Position numbers and translations under genes: made by a program. From Curvivirga aplysinae (GTDB taxonomy: Bacteria; Pseudomonadota; Alphaproteobacteria; UBA8366; Aestuariispiraceae): 35,664 nt of DNA. The stretch lies in contig NZ_SMMC01000190.1 of the NCBI RefSeq assembly GCF_009711445.1, positions 1 through 35,664 on the forward strand. Direction: 5' to 3'. Position 1 is the stretch's first letter; each line of letters begins with the position of its first letter. Positions 6,060 through 13,602 of the stretch are shown here, piece by piece. The notes beneath the pieces are model-generated. The model made no database searches and had not been told where the DNA came from. It worked only from the letters and a program-made list of their open reading frames with translations.

Positions 6060-7373
6060 ATGACATTGAAAATTGCTGTTATCGGGGCCGGCCCTTCCGG
6101 CATTTATGTAGCCGAAGGCGTAAAAAAGAAATTACCTGATACAATGGTTGATTTTATTGAACGTTTACCCACACCATTTGGATTGGTTCGTTTTGGTGTT
6201 GCCCCGGATCATCAGGGGACAAAAAAAGTCATTAACCAATATGAAAAATTCTTTGATCAAGAAGGGATTCGTTTGCTTGGCAATGTCGAAGTTGGCAAAG
6301 ATATTTCTGTTCAGGTCCTTCAAGAACATTATGATGCTGTCGTTATTGCCAATGGCGCCCGCGAAGATAAAAAACTTGGAATCCCTGGGGAGGATTTAGA
6401 CGGTGTTTATGGCTCTGCTGCTTTTGTAAGTTGGTATAATAGCCATCCTGATTATAAAGATCTTTCCCCGATCCCCGAACATGCGAAATCGGCAATAGTC
6501 ATCGGTAATGGTAATGTCGCCATTGATGTGGCTCGTATTTTGGTTAAATCTGCCGAAGAAATGGCTGATTCCGATCTTGCGGATCATACACGAATAGCCA
6601 TTGATAACGCTTCGATTAGTGATGTAGTTATTGCAGGCCGCCGTGGCCCAGTAGAAGCAAGTTTTACTCCGCCCGAATTACGTGAATTGGGTAAATTGGA
6701 ACATGCATTGCCTGTCATAGAAGGCGCTGTTATTCCCGATGAACTACCTTCACATATAGATACGAGCCAGCCTGCAGGCCGTATTAAGGGCAAAGTATTG
6801 GATATCTTCAGAAGCTTCACGGAAATGAAACGTGATGGCAAAGATAAAACTATCCATCTTCAATTTCTTGCAAGTCCAACAGCTTTTCTAGGTGAAGGAA
6901 AAGTTGAGGCCGTTCAATTTGAGCGAATGGAGTTAAACGAAGACGGCAAACCAACAGGCACAGGGGAACTTTTTGACATCCCTGCTGATTTGGTTGTCTC
7001 GGCAATTGGCTATTATTCCCAGCCTTTAGAAGGCGTTCCATTTGACGAACAACTGGGCCGTTATCCAAATGAAGAAGGCTTGATCAAAGATAATTTATAT
7101 GTTGTCGGTTGGGGAAAACGTGGGCCATCAGGCACTATCCCAACAAACCGTCCATGTAGTTTTAAAACATCCCAAATTATAATGGATCAAGTGATAGCTG
7201 ATCCCGCGAAGCAAGGCGGTGCGGCAATAGACAAATTACTTGCTGATAAAGGAAGCAAGGTAACTACTTTTACCGATTGGAAAGCCATTGATGCGGTCGA
7301 AACCAAAACTGAGACACGCCAGAAAATTGCTTCCGTTGATGAAATGTTAGCTGCCATCGAAGAAGCCATATAG
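6060..7373 (+). CDS. adrenodoxin-reductase-type ferredoxin-NADP reductase (FprA-like)
   Basis: An FAD enzyme that moves electrons between NADPH and ferredoxin, for iron-sulfur cluster assembly, P450s or other ferredoxin-dependent reactions. The 437 residues start with the FAD-binding VIGAGPSGIYVAEGV, followed by the family signature PTPFGLVRFGVAPDHQGTK. A central NADP-binding VIGNGNVAIDVARIL precedes RRGPVEASFTPPELREL, typical of adrenodoxin reductase and FprA. Near the C-terminus GWGKRGPSGTIPTNR closes the FAD site. A purine-rich stretch precedes the ATG. The gene stands alone and converges on the methyltransferase gene with only ten bases between stops. No partner ferredoxin gene is in the window. 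Confidence 0.92.
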   Translation: MTLKIAVIGAGPSGIYVAEGVKKKLPDTMVDFIERLPTPFGLVRFGVAPDHQGTKKVINQYEKFFDQEGIRLLGNVEVGKDISVQVLQEHYDAVVIANGAREDKKLGIPGEDLDGVYGSAAFVSWYNSHPDYKDLSPIPEHAKSAIVIGNGNVAIDVARILVKSAEEMADSDLADHTRIAIDNASISDVVIAGRRGPVEASFTPPELRELGKLEHALPVIEGAVIPDELPSHIDTSQPAGRIKGKVLDIFRSFTEMKRDGKDKTIHLQFLASPTAFLGEGKVEAVQFERMELNEDGKPTGTGELFDIPADLVVSAIGYYSQPLEGVPFDEQLGRYPNEEGLIKDNLYVVGWGKRGPSGTIPTNRPCSFKTSQIIMDQVIADPAKQGGAAIDKLLADKGSKVTTFTDWKAIDAVETKTETRQKIASVDEMLAAIEEAI

Positions 7374-7383
7374 CAAAGAAGAT

Positions 7384-8031
7384 TTACTTTCGTACCAGTA
7401 TTGTAAATTCCTTCTTCGCTTTGTCTTCCAATAGGGTTAAATCACCAGATAATTCCTTCTTGCAGAAATTATAGATATCCTTCTTATCTGCATAATACGT
7501 CCATTCCAGACGCTTCTTCTGTTTGGCATCATGTAAATTGAAACCCATCCCCTTTTTGCTATGCTCAAAAAGATGTCGAAGGCTTTCTTTTACATAACTT
7601 GTCCAGATATCATCTTCTGCTGTCCCTTTCATGTTAAAGGTACCAGAGCAGAAGGAATAATCGCAAATCTGTTGTGTTTGATAGGACCAGTTAAAATGCG
7701 CGCGACTATCTGTTATGCGTGTCTTTGTGTTTACAATCATATCTCGACAGATATCTGATCCATAATATTTAAAACGCCCGTCATTAAACTTATCAACATT
7801 TAAATATTCAAATAAAGCACCATAACCACAACCCAGGTCATTGATGGTGATTTCCTGATCAGCATCTGTTTTGTTAATCACCTTACAAAGTGTGGCAAAT
7901 CTTTTTTCCTGACCTTTTGCATCAGCCCATAACACACCTGTTGGTGAGGGGCCATGTTCATTAAATTGCATACTGTAACCAGCAGCAACCAGCTCAAGAA
8001 ATGGCGGAATGTCATTATTGAAAATTAGCAA
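7384..8031 (-). CDS. class I SAM-dependent methyltransferase, substrate unknown
   Basis: A soluble 215-residue protein with the SAM-binding motif I INDLGCGYGALFEYL near residue 65, followed by the acidic strand YYGSDICRDMI (YGSD), as in Rossmann-fold methyltransferases. The start used is a TTG at 8031 with AGG about 7 bases upstream. The next ATG (in GYSMQF) would remove 20 residues and lacks a visible ribosome site. I do not recognise the target. The N-terminal EHGPSPTGVLW resembles methyltransferases I recall from other proteobacteria. It is divergent from the small-protein gene at 8139 and convergent with the ferredoxin reductase gene. Confidence 0.75.
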   Translation of the reverse strand: MLIFNNDIPPFLELVAAGYSMQFNEHGPSPTGVLWADAKGQEKRFATLCKVINKTDADQEITINDLGCGYGALFEYLNVDKFNDGRFKYYGSDICRDMIVNTKTRITDSRAHFNWSYQTQQICDYSFCSGTFNMKGTAEDDIWTSYVKESLRHLFEHSKKGMGFNLHDAKQKKRLEWTYYADKKDIYNFCKKELSGDLTLLEDKAKKEFTILVRK

Positions 8032-8138
8032 CGAATAACCTGTATTTTCGCGAAACTATGAAAATTTACTTTAACAAATCCATTTTATGCTATGCTGCGT
8101 AGAACATAACAAGATGATATTTAACAGGAGGACTTCAT

Positions 8139-8330
8139 ATGTTGTATTCTTTTGCCCCATTGGAAGCGGATCGCCTTAAAGCAATTCAAGCTTTGGAAAA
8201 AGAAGTTGGCGCACCATTGGTTGCCATGTCAGCGATCAAAGCAGAACCTGTCGATATGGACGAAGAAAAAATTGCAAAAATCAAAAAACTAGAAGAAGAA
8301 CTTGGTGTCGTACTGGTCGCTGTGCAGTAA
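8139..8330 (+). CDS. 63-residue protein with an internal duplication, function unknown
   Basis: A small acidic protein with a strong ribosome site (AGGAGG about 9 bases before ATG), so it is very likely translated. It consists of two copies of one unit. LKAIQALEKEVGAPLVAM (about residues 13-30) matches IAKIKKLEEELGVVLVAV (about residues 45-62), joined by an acidic linker. Each unit reads as an amphipathic helix followed by a short hydrophobic strand. There is no signal peptide, cysteine or known catalytic motif. It is divergent from the methyltransferase and upstream of the histidine kinase, with 81 bases between. I do not recognise the family. Confidence 0.75.
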   Translation: MLYSFAPLEADRLKAIQALEKEVGAPLVAMSAIKAEPVDMDEEKIAKIKKLEEELGVVLVAVQ

Positions 8331-8411
8331 GTTTATCACTTCTGAGATTATTGCAATCATCTAATATTCCAGCTAAGACAGAAAAATAAAATGTTTTAGC
8401 AGGGATAAAAG

Positions 8412-9833
8412 ATGATCCAAATTACGGATTGTGATAGACATCTACGGAAACAGAACCTTCAGTTTCCTGAAGACGTTCGCAAAGAGCTGAGATGGGAAGC
8501 GATCAAAACCCTTAATAAGCGCTCCCTTCCTGGTATTTTATTTTTATATGCTGGGTTGGTCTATCTTGGTCTTTACATTCCCGTCGCCAAGGGGCTGCCG
8601 GATCTTTTCGCAAATATATTTATAACCGGCTTGATCCTTGTCACCATTCGCCTTGTGACCTCCTATATCGTCTTAAACAACGACAACATCAAAAATCTCG
8701 AAATATTCGAAATCATATTTTTCGTAAGTATTTCTGCTATTAGTCTGTATTTTGGTTTGGCGATGGCAGGTATCCTATATATTTACGGCTTTCAATGGTT
8801 TTCCTGGTTATTTTTCGTTTACCTCACCTGTGTAACAGTTGGTGCTTTCTCCTCCTTTTGCTTCTGGCGAAAATTGGCCCTCACCTATATCATCCTAGTC
8901 ATGGCGCCTACAGCTATTTCAACCTTCTTAATACCAAGCAACCATGGAAGCATAGTAGGTATTTGTAGCCTCCTATATACGATGTTCATACTTATTCAGG
9001 TTCGGATTTGGAACAAAGAATATTGGGATAATCGTATCCACCAACATCTCCAAAATCAGCGAACAGAAGAACTTGTAGAAGAAAAAATTATTTCCGATCA
9101 AGCAAACCAGACAAAATCCAAATTCCTGTCGTCTATGAGCCATGAATTACGCACACCGCTAAATGCAATTTTAGGTTTCTCACAGCTTTTACGCATTAGT
9201 CGCCATAGTGACCTAAATGAATATCAACAAAAAAATGTGGATCAAATCATTCGATCTGGTGAACTATTGTTAGGCCTCATTGATAGTGTGTTGGATTTCT
9301 CACGCATGGAATCTGGACGCACACCTCTAAATCCAGAAGCATTTTTTCCCAATGAAGTTATGAGAGAAACCCTTGAAATGCTTCGTAACAATGCAAGAGA
9401 GAGAGAAGTCACTCTAAATGGAAAGAGGCAATCCAACACAGGGATTTATGCAGACCGATTACGCTTCAAACAAGTCATGGTCAACTTAATGACCAATGCC
9501 ATCAAATATAACAAAAGAGGCGGACATGTTGAGTTTGGTTGCATTGATCTTCCCAATGGAAATGTTGAGATCTATGTGGAAGATACAGGTAAGGGCATTG
9601 CTAAAAATCAACTAGAGAATATTTTTGAACCATTTGAGCGTCTGGATGCTGTCAATTCTCAAATCGAAGGAACAGGCATCGGGTTAACCATAAGCAAAAA
9701 GCTTATTGAAACCATGGGCGGCAAAATCCATGTCAGTAGCGAAGAAGGTATTGGCAGTAGATTTAGCATTGAAATGCAAGCTGCGGATCCCGATATGATA
9801 TCTAAGGAAGGGCGACCCGTATATGAGATTTAA
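8412..9833 (+). CDS. membrane sensor histidine kinase without receiver domain
   Basis: An inner-membrane sensor kinase of 473 residues. Residues about 39-198 hold roughly six hydrophobic segments with short loops, so the sensor part is mostly within the membrane. A helical linker leads to the HisKA domain with H-box SHELRTP, phospho-acceptor His244. The HATPase domain follows with N-box (MVNLMTNAIKYN), G1 (VEDTGKGIA) and G2 (GTGIGLTISKKL). AGGG lies before the ATG. There is no PAS, HAMP or receiver domain, and no response regulator gene adjoins it, so the partner is unknown. Its 3' end overlaps the lipoprotein gene by 11 bases, which suggests co-translation. Confidence 0.92.
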   Translation: MIQITDCDRHLRKQNLQFPEDVRKELRWEAIKTLNKRSLPGILFLYAGLVYLGLYIPVAKGLPDLFANIFITGLILVTIRLVTSYIVLNNDNIKNLEIFEIIFFVSISAISLYFGLAMAGILYIYGFQWFSWLFFVYLTCVTVGAFSSFCFWRKLALTYIILVMAPTAISTFLIPSNHGSIVGICSLLYTMFILIQVRIWNKEYWDNRIHQHLQNQRTEELVEEKIISDQANQTKSKFLSSMSHELRTPLNAILGFSQLLRISRHSDLNEYQQKNVDQIIRSGELLLGLIDSVLDFSRMESGRTPLNPEAFFPNEVMRETLEMLRNNAREREVTLNGKRQSNTGIYADRLRFKQVMVNLMTNAIKYNKRGGHVEFGCIDLPNGNVEIYVEDTGKGIAKNQLENIFEPFERLDAVNSQIEGTGIGLTISKKLIETMGGKIHVSSEEGIGSRFSIEMQAADPDMISKEGRPVYEI

Positions 9834-10461
9834 GACCATGTTTCGAATTCTTGCAATTTCATCTTTACTATTGATTGCGGCTTGTGCGCGCTTGACTGGA
9901 GATGTCCAATCCTTCTCAGAAATCACGGAAGACGATAAAACAAAAAGCTTAATCGTACAGCCCTTTCCGGAAGAATTACGAAGTAGTCTTGAATATAAAA
10001 CCTACAAAGAAAAACTGGAAAACCATCTTTCCGAACAAGGCTTTCAAATCGTCCAAGATGAAAAAGACGCAGACCTTATTGCTTTTTTCAACTACGGCAT
10101 AAATGACGGTATTGAGATTAAAGATAATAGTTATGGTTATCCATCCGTAACATTTGGAGGTGGATATGGTTCAAGCGGTGGTGGACATGTGAGTACCCGC
10201 TATACCATTCCGATCTATACAACAGGTGCCAGTTCCACTCGTACCTATGACAGCTATACGCGCAAGATTGCACTAGATATCGTCGTAAAAGACAGCTTGG
10301 AAAACGAAGCAGGCCCCACTGTACTTTACGAAGGTCGCCTACGCTCCAAAGGCCGATGCGGCGTTCTCTCCGAAGTGATGGATGAAATGCTCTCCCTCCT
10401 CTTTGAGAAATTCCCAGATCAAAGCGGAAAGGCCTCCATCAAACAGGAGGCTGATTGTTAG
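9823..10461 (+). CDS. DUF4136-like lipoprotein
   Basis: A 212-residue predicted lipoprotein. A basic N-terminus and hydrophobic stretch lead to the lipobox LIAAC with Cys21, so the mature protein is probably anchored in the outer or inner membrane facing the periplasm. The body has the DUF4136-like pattern: a YKTYKEKLENHLSEQGF segment, then DADLIAFFNYGI, then a glycine-rich stretch and a charged C-terminal helix. Function is unknown. The start at 9823 follows AAGGAAGGG and overlaps the kinase gene. A second ATG at 9838 would leave a shorter signal peptide. The stop codon overlaps that of the convergent tetR gene. Confidence 0.75.
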   Translation: MRFKTMFRILAISSLLLIAACARLTGDVQSFSEITEDDKTKSLIVQPFPEELRSSLEYKTYKEKLENHLSEQGFQIVQDEKDADLIAFFNYGINDGIEIKDNSYGYPSVTFGGGYGSSGGGHVSTRYTIPIYTTGASSTRTYDSYTRKIALDIVVKDSLENEAGPTVLYEGRLRSKGRCGVLSEVMDEMLSLLFEKFPDQSGKASIKQEADC

Positions 10462-11021
10462 GAAGATTGGCAAACCACTAAAATATTTGCCTTTAATACG
10501 GACAAATATTCATCTAGATGGCCCCGACTTTTAGCTTCCATTTTGATGAATGACAGTGAAATCATAATAAAGTCGGCATAAGTTTCAATATCCAAACCAT
10601 TTGCCTCAATTGGCGCCTTATAGGGTGATAGCAAATTGATTACTTCTTGAGTTAGCAACTTAATCGCCTCAGCCTTTTCTTTAGCAACAATCTCCACCAC
10701 ACCACTCAGGATATCTTTTGCATCTGGCAGGTTAGCTACCATCTCATAAGATTGTATCGCATAGACATTAAAAACTACATCCAATTGATCTGACAGTTTT
10801 TCTGATCCATAGGCATTTTGTTGAATTTCTTCCAACATCTGCGCCATGACGTATCGTGTTGTTCCACGCAAAACATCATTCTTATTCTTGTATAAATTAT
10901 ACAAAGTTTGGCGAACGACACCTGCTTCCTCAGCAATATCATTCATTGTTGTGCGTTTAACACCATAGCGTGACAGGACCCGAATTGCGGCTTCGATAAT
11001 TTCGATTTCATTTTTTTTCAT
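10458..11021 (-). CDS. TetR-family transcriptional regulator
   Basis: 187 residues. The N-terminal TetR helix-turn-helix is clear: AAIRVLSRYGVKRTTMNDIA, then EEAGVVRQTLYNLYKNKNDVL. The C-terminal two-thirds is a helical ligand domain without recognisable ligand residues. The gene is divergent from the short-chain dehydrogenase gene, the usual arrangement for a local repressor of itself and its neighbour. No clear ribosome site precedes the ATG. A -35-like TTGACA on the minus strand (11055-11050) would place transcription start very near the start codon, so a leaderless message is possible. Confidence 0.9.
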   Translation of the reverse strand: MKKNEIEIIEAAIRVLSRYGVKRTTMNDIAEEAGVVRQTLYNLYKNKNDVLRGTTRYVMAQMLEEIQQNAYGSEKLSDQLDVVFNVYAIQSYEMVANLPDAKDILSGVVEIVAKEKAEAIKLLTQEVINLLSPYKAPIEANGLDIETYADFIMISLSFIKMEAKSRGHLDEYLSVLKANILVVCQSS

Positions 11022-11030
11022 AGGGACATA

Positions 11031-11080
11031 TTGACAAAATATGCCTAAATGTCAATATAGACAAAATTACATTATTTGTC
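11031..11080. promoter_or_regulatory. two operator-like inverted repeats between tetR and the SDR gene
   Basis: The first repeat is TTGACA (11031-11036) with TGTCAA (11050-11055), spacer 13. The second is GACAAA (11060-11065) with TTTGTC (11075-11080), spacer 9. Both share the GACAAAAT element. The outer arms of the first repeat are also perfect -35 hexamers, one on each strand, so a bound repressor would block both divergent promoters. That reading is inference from position and symmetry. Confidence 0.6.
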
Positions 11081-11113
11081 CAAATGATGAGGTTAACTTG
11101 AGAGGAAATTACT

Positions 11114-12031
11114 ATGGCGAAACAGACCCGAGTGAAACTAAATTGGAATGCCGAAAATATCCCTGACCAGTCAGGACGCAGAGTTATAATTACGGGTGCT
11201 GCTACAGGCCTTGGTAAAGAAACAGCACGTGTATTAGCAAGCAAGAATGCCGAAGTGATCATTGCCGCAAGAAATAAAGCAAAAGCTCATAAGGCAATCG
11301 ACGACATTCATCGCGATTTTCCAAAGGCAAATGTAACTTTCCGACAGTTAGACCTTGCCGACTTAGCATCCGTTAAATCTTTTGCTAACGGCATTATCGC
11401 TGATTTTAATGAATTAGATGTGTTAATTAACAATGCTGGCATCATGATGTGCCCGAAAGCAACCACGAAGGATGGCAATGAGATTCAAATGGGAACAAAC
11501 CATTTTGGTCACTTCGCCCTAACAGGACAGTTATTACCCCTATTAGAAAAAGCAGAAGATTCCCGCATCGTAATTCTTTCAAGTATAGCCCATAAGATGA
11601 GCAAGATTGACTTGGATGATATCAATTGGGAAAAACGAAAATATAACACCAATATGGCTTATTATGACAGTAAACTTGCCGATCAACTTTTTGCCCATGA
11701 GTTAAATCGTAAGCTTGCCGATCGTCCTAATGCGCCTATGGTTACAATCGCCCACCCCGGCTGGACTGCTACTGATCTACAACGTCACAATGGTTTGGTT
11801 CGTTTCCTGAATATTTTCTTTGCCCAACAACCTAAAGATGGCGTTCTCCCAACCTTGCGTGCTGGTTTCGACAAAGATACAAAATCCGGCGACTTCTTTG
11901 GCCCTTCTGGCGCATTTGAAATGAAAGGACCACCCGTCAAAGTAAAAGCCACCAAGCAAGCTAATGACCTTGGCCTTGCTAAACGTCTCTGGACCATTTC
12001 AGAAGATCTAACAGGCATTCATTTCGCTTAG
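11114..12031 (+). CDS. short-chain dehydrogenase/reductase (retinol dehydrogenase/WWOX-like)
   Basis: A 305-residue NAD(P)-dependent oxidoreductase of the classical short-chain dehydrogenase fold. The cofactor motif TGAATGLG is near residue 27. The structural LINNAG is present, the catalytic Ser lies in VILSSIAH, and YYDSK supplies the Tyr-xxx-Lys pair. The closest remembered subgroup is the retinol-dehydrogenase/WWOX/protochlorophyllide-reductase-like set (TNHFGHFALTGQLLPLL). The substrate cannot be told. GAGGA lies about 8 bases before the ATG. It is probably controlled by the divergent TetR regulator through the repeats at 11031-11080. Confidence 0.9.
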   Translation: MAKQTRVKLNWNAENIPDQSGRRVIITGAATGLGKETARVLASKNAEVIIAARNKAKAHKAIDDIHRDFPKANVTFRQLDLADLASVKSFANGIIADFNELDVLINNAGIMMCPKATTKDGNEIQMGTNHFGHFALTGQLLPLLEKAEDSRIVILSSIAHKMSKIDLDDINWEKRKYNTNMAYYDSKLADQLFAHELNRKLADRPNAPMVTIAHPGWTATDLQRHNGLVRFLNIFFAQQPKDGVLPTLRAGFDKDTKSGDFFGPSGAFEMKGPPVKVKATKQANDLGLAKRLWTISEDLTGIHFA

Positions 12032-12081
12032 CCTATATCCCGACTTGTCTGGGGTTCCCCTCTTCCCATTCCTTCTCGAAC

Positions 12082-12116
12082 CCAAACAAAAGCCCCGCAG
12101 AATTCTGCAGGGCCTT
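12082..12116 (-). terminator. rho-independent terminator after gatB
   Basis: A hairpin centred on the perfect palindrome GCAGAATTCTGC (12097-12108) is extended by GGGC/GCCC arms with one mismatch. Read on the minus strand it is followed by CTTTTGTTTG, so it ends the gatCAB operon. It may also act on the convergent dehydrogenase transcript. Confidence 0.75.
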
Positions 12117-12144
12117 GTTACTTTTTTGGAAGAAAGTCGCAGGA

Positions 12145-13602
12145 TTAACCAGCCAGTTTCTCTTTCAAGATTTTATTAACTACGCCCGGGTTGGCTTTGC
12201 CTTGGGAGGCTTTCATGGTTTGACCAACGAACCAGCCGATAAGCTTTTCGTTACCACCACGATATTGTTCAACCTGACCCGGATTATTGGCAATAAGATC
12301 ATCAATGATAGCTTCAATAGCACCTGTGTCGGTGATCTGTTTTAAGCCTTTTTCTTCAACGATGTCTTTCGCCATTTTACCGGTAGAGAACATGTCGTCG
12401 AAAACGTCTTTCGCGATTTTACCGGAAATGGTGTCATCTTTAATCAAGCCAACCAATTGACCCAGATTTTCAGGTGTCACAGGGCTGTCTGTGATAGACA
12501 TATCCGCCTTGTTCAAACGACCAAATAATTCAGAGATCACCCAGTTCGCTGTTAGTTTTGGATCACCGCCTGCATCTACAGCCTGCTCATAATAAGCAGA
12601 GTTTTCTGTTTCTGCAGTCAATACACCCGCATCATATGCAGGCAGACCAAAATCGCTGATGAAACGGTTTTTCTTCACATCTGGAAGTTCCGGCAAGTCT
12701 GCCGCCAATTCATCCACCCAAGCTTGTTCCAGAATAACTGGCAACAAATCTGGATCTGGGAAGTAGCGATAGTCATGCGCGTCTTCTTTGGAACGCATGG
12801 AACGTGTGATGCCTTTTGCTGTATCGAATAGGCGTGTTTCCTGATCGATGGAGCCGCCTTCTTCAAGGATTTGAACTTGGCGTTTTGCTTCAAACTCAAT
12901 CGCTTGTTTCATGAAACGAAGGGAGTTCAGGTTTTTGATCTCACAACGTGTACCATATTCATCACCCGGCTTACGCACAGATACGTTAACGTCTGCACGC
13001 ATAGAACCTTCGGCCATGTTACCATCACAAGAACCAATGCAGCGCACGATGGAACGAATCTTTGAAACATAAGCAGCTGCTTCTTCAGGGCTGCGCATAT
13101 CTGGATCAGATACGATTTCCATCAAGCATACACCGGAACGGTTCAAGTCGATGTAAGATTGTGTAGGATGTTGGTCATGGATGGATTTACCCGCATCTTG
13201 TTCCAAATGCAGACGTTCCACGCCAATTTCCTTTGTTGAACCATCTTCAAGGTCGATTGTGACTTTACCACGTTTTACGATTGGCTCTTCAAACTGGGAA
13301 ATCTGATAACCTTGTGGCAAATCGGCATAGAAATAGTTCTTACGCGCGAATACAGATTTCAAGTTAATTTCACAGCCCATCGCAAGGCCAGTACGCACAC
13401 CTTGACGCACGCATTCTTTGTTTACAACTGGCAACATGCCCGGCATCGCCGCATCAACGAGGGATACCTGTTCATTCGGGTCCGCCCCGAATGTTGTAGC
13501 CGCACCAGAAAATAGTTTCGCGTTGGAAGATACCTGCGCATGGATTTCCAAGCCCATAACCACTTCCCAATCGCCTGTATTGCCTTTGATCATATAGGTC
13601 AT
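12145..13602 (-). CDS. gatB: Asp-tRNA(Asn)/Glu-tRNA(Gln) amidotransferase subunit B
   Basis: This subunit binds and phosphorylates mischarged Glu-tRNA(Gln) and Asp-tRNA(Asn), which GatA-derived ammonia then amidates. The 485 residues fit the family. The N-terminus has the GatB core ([21 protein letters not shown]) and the [21 protein letters not shown] signature. A C-terminal YqeY-like tRNA-binding region ends in [19 protein letters not shown] purine-rich site (AGAGAAGAG) precedes the ATG. It lies 24 bases after gatA and is the last gene of gatC-gatA-gatB. Confidence 0.98.

Follow-up and report, generated by a model that had tools for sequence, protein, structure and literature searches.

The small gene and its distribution

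The DNA analyzed here, a stretch of 35,664 nucleotides from Curvivirga aplysinae (referred to as the window), contains a short open reading frame at positions 8139–8330 of the + strand, and raises the question of whether this frame is a genuine gene and what kind of protein it would encode. The frame starts with ATG and specifies a 63-aa product, MLYSFAPLEADRLKAIQALEKEVGAPLVAMSAIKAEPVDMDEEKIAKIKKLEEELGVVLVAVQ. A ribosome-binding site, AGGAGG (8126–8131, + strand), is separated from the start codon by a 7-nt spacer. The original prediction described a translated-looking frame behind a good ribosome site, and both features were borne out. Sequences matching AGGAGG over 4–6 bases were present upstream of the chosen starts, all of them ATG, in 19/19 members of the family examined. 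The gene was assigned on the basis of its translation, its homologues and the selection acting on its frame, and it has a single match in its own genome.

Substitutions between homologues were commonest at third codon positions in all 11 gene pairs subjected to ungapped comparison. The dN/dS ratios ranged from 0.04 to 0.32 over these pairs, with dS above 1, i.e. near saturation, in 8 of the 11. For instance, the pair g6a/g6f shows codon-position differences of 7/0/18 (dN/dS 0.07), and the pair g6b/g6d differences of 6/3/26 (dN/dS 0.05). The + frame of the small gene is under purifying selection. A spurious open reading frame might be suspected from the short length and from the absence of a curated family, but the frame, start codon, ribosome site and codon-position bias are conserved across genera, and the probability of such an artifact is negligible. 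The gene is genuine and lineage-restricted, and there is hardly any doubt about the existence and anatomy of its family.

Homologues with a conserved frame, on which the original prediction had staked its case, were found in related genomes. Within the order (43 genomes searched), they are present in 14/14 genomes of the window's own family, representing 7 genera, with one match each, and in 0/29 genomes from the three other families. That no sampled genome of the window's own family lacks the gene points to a real role in the cell. In an evenly drawn sample of the class, a homologue was found in 6/387 genomes, all belonging to the window's own family, and in a sample of the phylum in 1/299, namely the window's own genome; in many of these genomes the best 16 and the best 20 first-look candidates, respectively, were scored.

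Outside the family, a pattern scan of named genomes identified, among the matches listed, at least three Leisingera strains and at least one Rhodobacteraceae MAG. The MAG copy is identical to that of locus L016 and was left out of sequence set A1. In the genus of the first-found Leisingera strain, 18/21 genomes carry a homologue; the Leisingera protein has 65 aa. A sample of the family of this strain gave three matches in 295 genomes, the best 21 first-look candidates being scored in many of them: the strain itself, a diverged member in genome G692 (locus L047) and a chance match in G840. The last, a stretch of 26 residues inside a 466-aa frame, was dropped. The L047 gene (L047:1495–1689, − strand) is a true member, in which the Gly conserved elsewhere in the first unit is replaced by Asp. 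Distant members may be missed by the candidate-limited class, phylum and Leisingera-family searches and by the scan of named genomes. Plasmids, phages and viral contigs yielded no relative of the small protein (the viral scan relied on one peptide pattern).

In a 29-row tree with a midpoint root, the Leisingera proteins nest inside the window's family, beside g2, g5 and g1, with modest supports (91/63, 90/82 and 85/68) and a long-branch warning on the tree. This placement fits a single horizontal transfer to the Leisingera ancestor.

The upstream regions of the genes were also compared. A TAT(A/G)NT box was found at −70 to −16 in 13/19 members, compared with 1.2 expected from shuffled sequences; the pattern was picked after viewing the sequences, and the 13 positives include three near-identical ones. 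The box starts 33–67 bases upstream of the gene and is missing in the remaining 6/19 members. In the window, two overlapping copies of TATGCT (8086–8096, + strand) constitute a weak candidate for a −10 region. A TATA(C/G)T box, read by eye, lies upstream of all 18 copies from the Leisingera genus. A sigma-70 consensus scan of the window gave no above-chance promoter here and one site elsewhere (1.4 expected). No EcfG-type stress promoter pattern was detected within 300 bases upstream of the 19 members, and no Rfam match was obtained in the window at gathering scores. The small gene probably has its own promoter in most genomes of the family, as judged from these motifs, while that of the window's copy is only putative.

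Internal duplication and predicted structure

The protein had been described as two copies of an 18-residue unit joined by an acidic linker. Its division into two related halves, each composed of a helix, LE..(V/L)G and LVA(M/V), was upheld. The 18-residue unit was ruled out, since self-alignment gives a period of 32 residues: this is the best offset in 18/19 members (33 in the remaining one). The best ungapped self-alignment of the window protein pairs residues 8–30 with 40–62 (score 44), a score matched by none of 2000 shuffled sequences. For each of the 18 other members, 0/300 shuffles met its own self-alignment score. When profiles of the two halves, built from 15/19 members (four close duplicates were left out of the half-by-half alignments), were compared with each other, the probability was 97.96% and the E-value 2.9e-13.

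The matching core of the two copies spans 22–27 residues. In the window, the core of copy 1 (APLEADRLKAIQALEKEVGAPLVAMS) is encoded at 8154–8231 and that of copy 2 (VDMDEEKIAKIKKLEEELGVVLVAVQ) at 8250–8327, both on the + strand and aligned with each other at an offset of 32. With this period and core length, little of the protein falls outside the two copies, and the supposed acidic linker belongs to the beginning of copy 2. The consensus over 30 units from 15/19 members is A.L....L.AI..LE.ELG..LVAV, in which unit positions L14, E15 and A24 are invariant (30/30 aligned units). Each unit consists of a short N-terminal segment, a 14-residue helix with the invariant L-E, a Gly helix stop and LVA(V/M). 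The protein as a whole therefore represents a tandem duplication and fusion of a 32-residue unit.

Relatives of the single unit were sought with a 26-position profile in 289 genomes, with up to 29 candidates scored per genome. Matches at E ≤ 0.05 were obtained in 75/289 genomes, four of which represent members of the family. Among these best candidates, no small gene consisting of a single unit was found in the 289 genomes. Apart from the small gene itself, none of the matches covers the unit from end to end, and all lie in open frames of at least 141 aa.

An AlphaFold2 model of the window protein (pLDDT 90.2, pTM 0.51) contains strands at residues 2–5 and 30–33 and helices at 10–23 and 42–55. 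A second model, of a Leisingera member with 23 sequences, is weaker (pLDDT 80.4, pTM 0.46) and reproduces both helices, with no strand of at least three residues. With strands 2–5 and 30–33 lost, the models agree only on the two helices, which occupy equivalent positions, and not on a tertiary fold. The predicted helices at 10–23 and 42–55 are credible. The first model gave no PDB or BFVD match at E ≤ 0.001 (Foldseek) and no match with Z ≥ 2 among 50 chains (VIA-align). An unsettled overall fold might be expected if the small protein needs a partner or itself. Self-pairing is plausible, with low pTM values (0.51 and 0.46) in both models.

Resemblance to known protein families

The original prediction named no family for the protein, and this held up: at the level of sequence profiles it has no convincing match in Pfam, NCBIfam, PHROGs or PADLOC. 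The window protein (P0001) reaches none of the Pfam cut-offs shown, and no NCBIfam family matches it. Searches of NCBIfam with 23 members returned four weak families, the best E-value (0.0036) being that of a LysR model in one member. Three members scanned against PHROGs gave a best E-value of 0.0035 over 19 residues, and the three scanned with PADLOC gave no match. The best E-value in a PDB profile search was only 0.083. As judged by titles and the openings of abstracts, a literature search returned no relevant publication.

The most consistent resemblance is to the LysR-type helix-turn-helix domain (HTH_1, PF00126), weakly matched by all 17 A1 members at E ≤ 0.1, with the best E-value of the 17 scanned (1.6e-4) for P0001. 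The next Pfam E-value, 9.5e-4, is that of ZSWIM1-3_C, matched by 4/17 members. The likeness to LysR proteins extends from helix 3 to strand 1, where both share I..LE..LG..L(V/F) over about 14–16 residues; in P0001, two stretches fall within an E-value threshold of 1. The protein could therefore be conceived as a derivative or mimic of the recognition-helix/first-wing-strand piece of LysR, acting on LysR-type regulators or on DNA. Also consistent with this idea are the NCBIfam LysR match and the LysR frames found in many genomes by the single-unit profile. Outside the family, the matches to this profile were partial: they typically cover unit positions 10–23 of 26 and lie for the most part in frames of about 300 aa. 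Of the 26 loci inspected (L053–L078), 20 are LysR-like by eye and three have no readable match.

However, P0001 scores 22 bits against PF00126, below the curated cut-off of 26.6, and its best stretch covers profile positions 32–47 of 60, which does not amount to a complete winged HTH. By eye, the first HTH helices and the wing Arg of LysR proteins are absent. The small protein differs from the LysR domain further in its two copies with a 32-residue period and in its acidity: the computed pI is 4.67 for the window protein, below 5.4 in 16/19 members and below 6.3 in all 19, which is poorly suited to DNA binding. Moreover, Pfam confirmed L053 as LysR, but equally confirmed that two other loci matching the unit in the same way encode pyruvate kinase (L062 and L066) and one an acyl transferase (L065, Acyl_transf_1), as expected of a generic helix-Gly-strand signature. 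For these reasons the HTH_1 match was rejected as evidence of homology, and an origin from, or mimicry of, LysR seems unlikely.

The sequence A(I/V)R.LE..LGRP occurs near the centre of loci L062, L066 and L065 and is almost the helix-Gly-strand signature of the small protein and of LysR. A signature common to LysR, pyruvate kinase and acyl transferase, which are unrelated, most plausibly reflects local convergence. In the pyruvate kinase barrel (PF00224; L062 and L066), AI(R).LE..LGRPI is followed by a hydrophobic strand, as in the small protein, but the segment lies within an enzyme of roughly 470 aa and there is no evidence of homology. A parallel of a different kind is provided by NCBIfam NF047377 (HspR fused homodimer type), which shares the idea of two copies of a dimerizing unit per chain; it was weakly matched by 2/23 members (best E-value 0.013), and the sequence match is not convincing.

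The invariant Glu of the unit, E20 and E52 in the window protein, could also be taken to form a pseudo-symmetric pair in a small ligand- or metal-binding protein, given that none of the 30 aligned units lacks the Glu of L-E-x-x-(L/I/V)-(G). Nevertheless, the same residue occurs in the LysR, pyruvate kinase and acyl transferase matches (the search pattern required Glu), and it may thus be a mere helix or salt-bridge residue. In addition, His is found in some members without being conserved, and Cys in 2/19. A ligand- or metal-binding function is consequently rather improbable.

Genomic context and possible role

The neighbors of the small gene vary from genus to genus. The commonest shared one is a convergent gatB, found in 6/14 genomes of the family, the window included. 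In the window it is located at 12145–13602 (− strand; GatB_N and GatB_Yqey domains), 3.8 kb from the small gene; in 5/13 other family loci the spacing is 40–75 bases (four loci) or about 0.7 kb (the fifth). Three genera (g1, g2 and g5) share the wider order pyc – FNR-like reductase – variable slot – small gene – gatB. In L022 the slot is taken up by an AMP-binding enzyme; in L025 it encodes a MASE1-PAS-GGDEF protein, so that in this locus a GGDEF signalling protein adjoins the small gene. In the window, the variable slot around the small gene extends over 6060–13602, from the FNR-like reductase to gatB. It holds a methyltransferase gene, and the interval from the small gene to gatB encodes a histidine kinase, a DUF4136 protein, a TetR regulator and a short-chain dehydrogenase. 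The histidine kinase (HisKA and HATPase_c domains) and DUF4136 genes (8412–10461) overlap by 11 bases and likely form a two-gene unit. The DUF4136 gene product has, by eye, a lipoprotein-like start.

The original prediction linked the small protein to this kinase or to the methyltransferase. Three observations would fit a link of this kind: the kinase gene begins 81 bases downstream on the same strand, which makes co-transcription in C. aplysinae conceivable; other methyltransferases (Pfam-confirmed), too dissimilar to match that of the window, are encoded 1.9 kb (L026) and 7.2 kb (L031) from the small gene; and the GGDEF signalling protein of L025 is its direct neighbor. However, the window's methyltransferase has no match in any of 18 other loci, 13 of them family loci (tblastn, E 1e-3), and kinase-like matches occur in only 3/18, none of them adjacent (2.5–5.3 kb off, 27–33% identity); the loci compared reach at most 4 kb per side for Leisingera and the MAG and 1.5 kb for L047, and L029 and L033 end at contig ends. 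The positions of the methyltransferase in the variable slot and of the kinase between the small gene and gatB make both orphan genes look like local insertions. Family-wide co-occurrence with either gene was therefore rejected, and it is unlikely, indeed highly improbable, that one of these neighbors is the partner of the small protein.

Our preferred reading, to which we assign a probability of about 0.4, is that of a small acidic, pseudo-symmetric protein that self-associates or binds a partner as an adaptor or regulator. The 32-residue unit may once have been homodimeric, and its fusion would have fixed two units within a single, pseudo-twofold symmetric chain. Self-association or the docking of a partner could then be mediated by the hydrophobic LVAV edges, by the paired invariant E20 and E52, or by both. 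The acidic protein, in which no transmembrane or signal segment was recognized by eye, would presumably be cytosolic and serve as a small adaptor or regulator.

A bolder proposal, which we consider possible yet doubtful, is that the family represents a new minimal alpha/beta fold: a 32-residue peptide that was duplicated and fused, moved horizontally to Leisingera, and completes an oligomer via its LVAV strands. If true, it would be a natural example of a fold arising from a repeated short peptide. The family itself is new and real, with a clean internal duplication, and is ordinary as a category. Built in its entirety by tandem duplication of a 32-residue peptide, its protein is an unusually clean example on which ideas about the origins of small folds can be tested.
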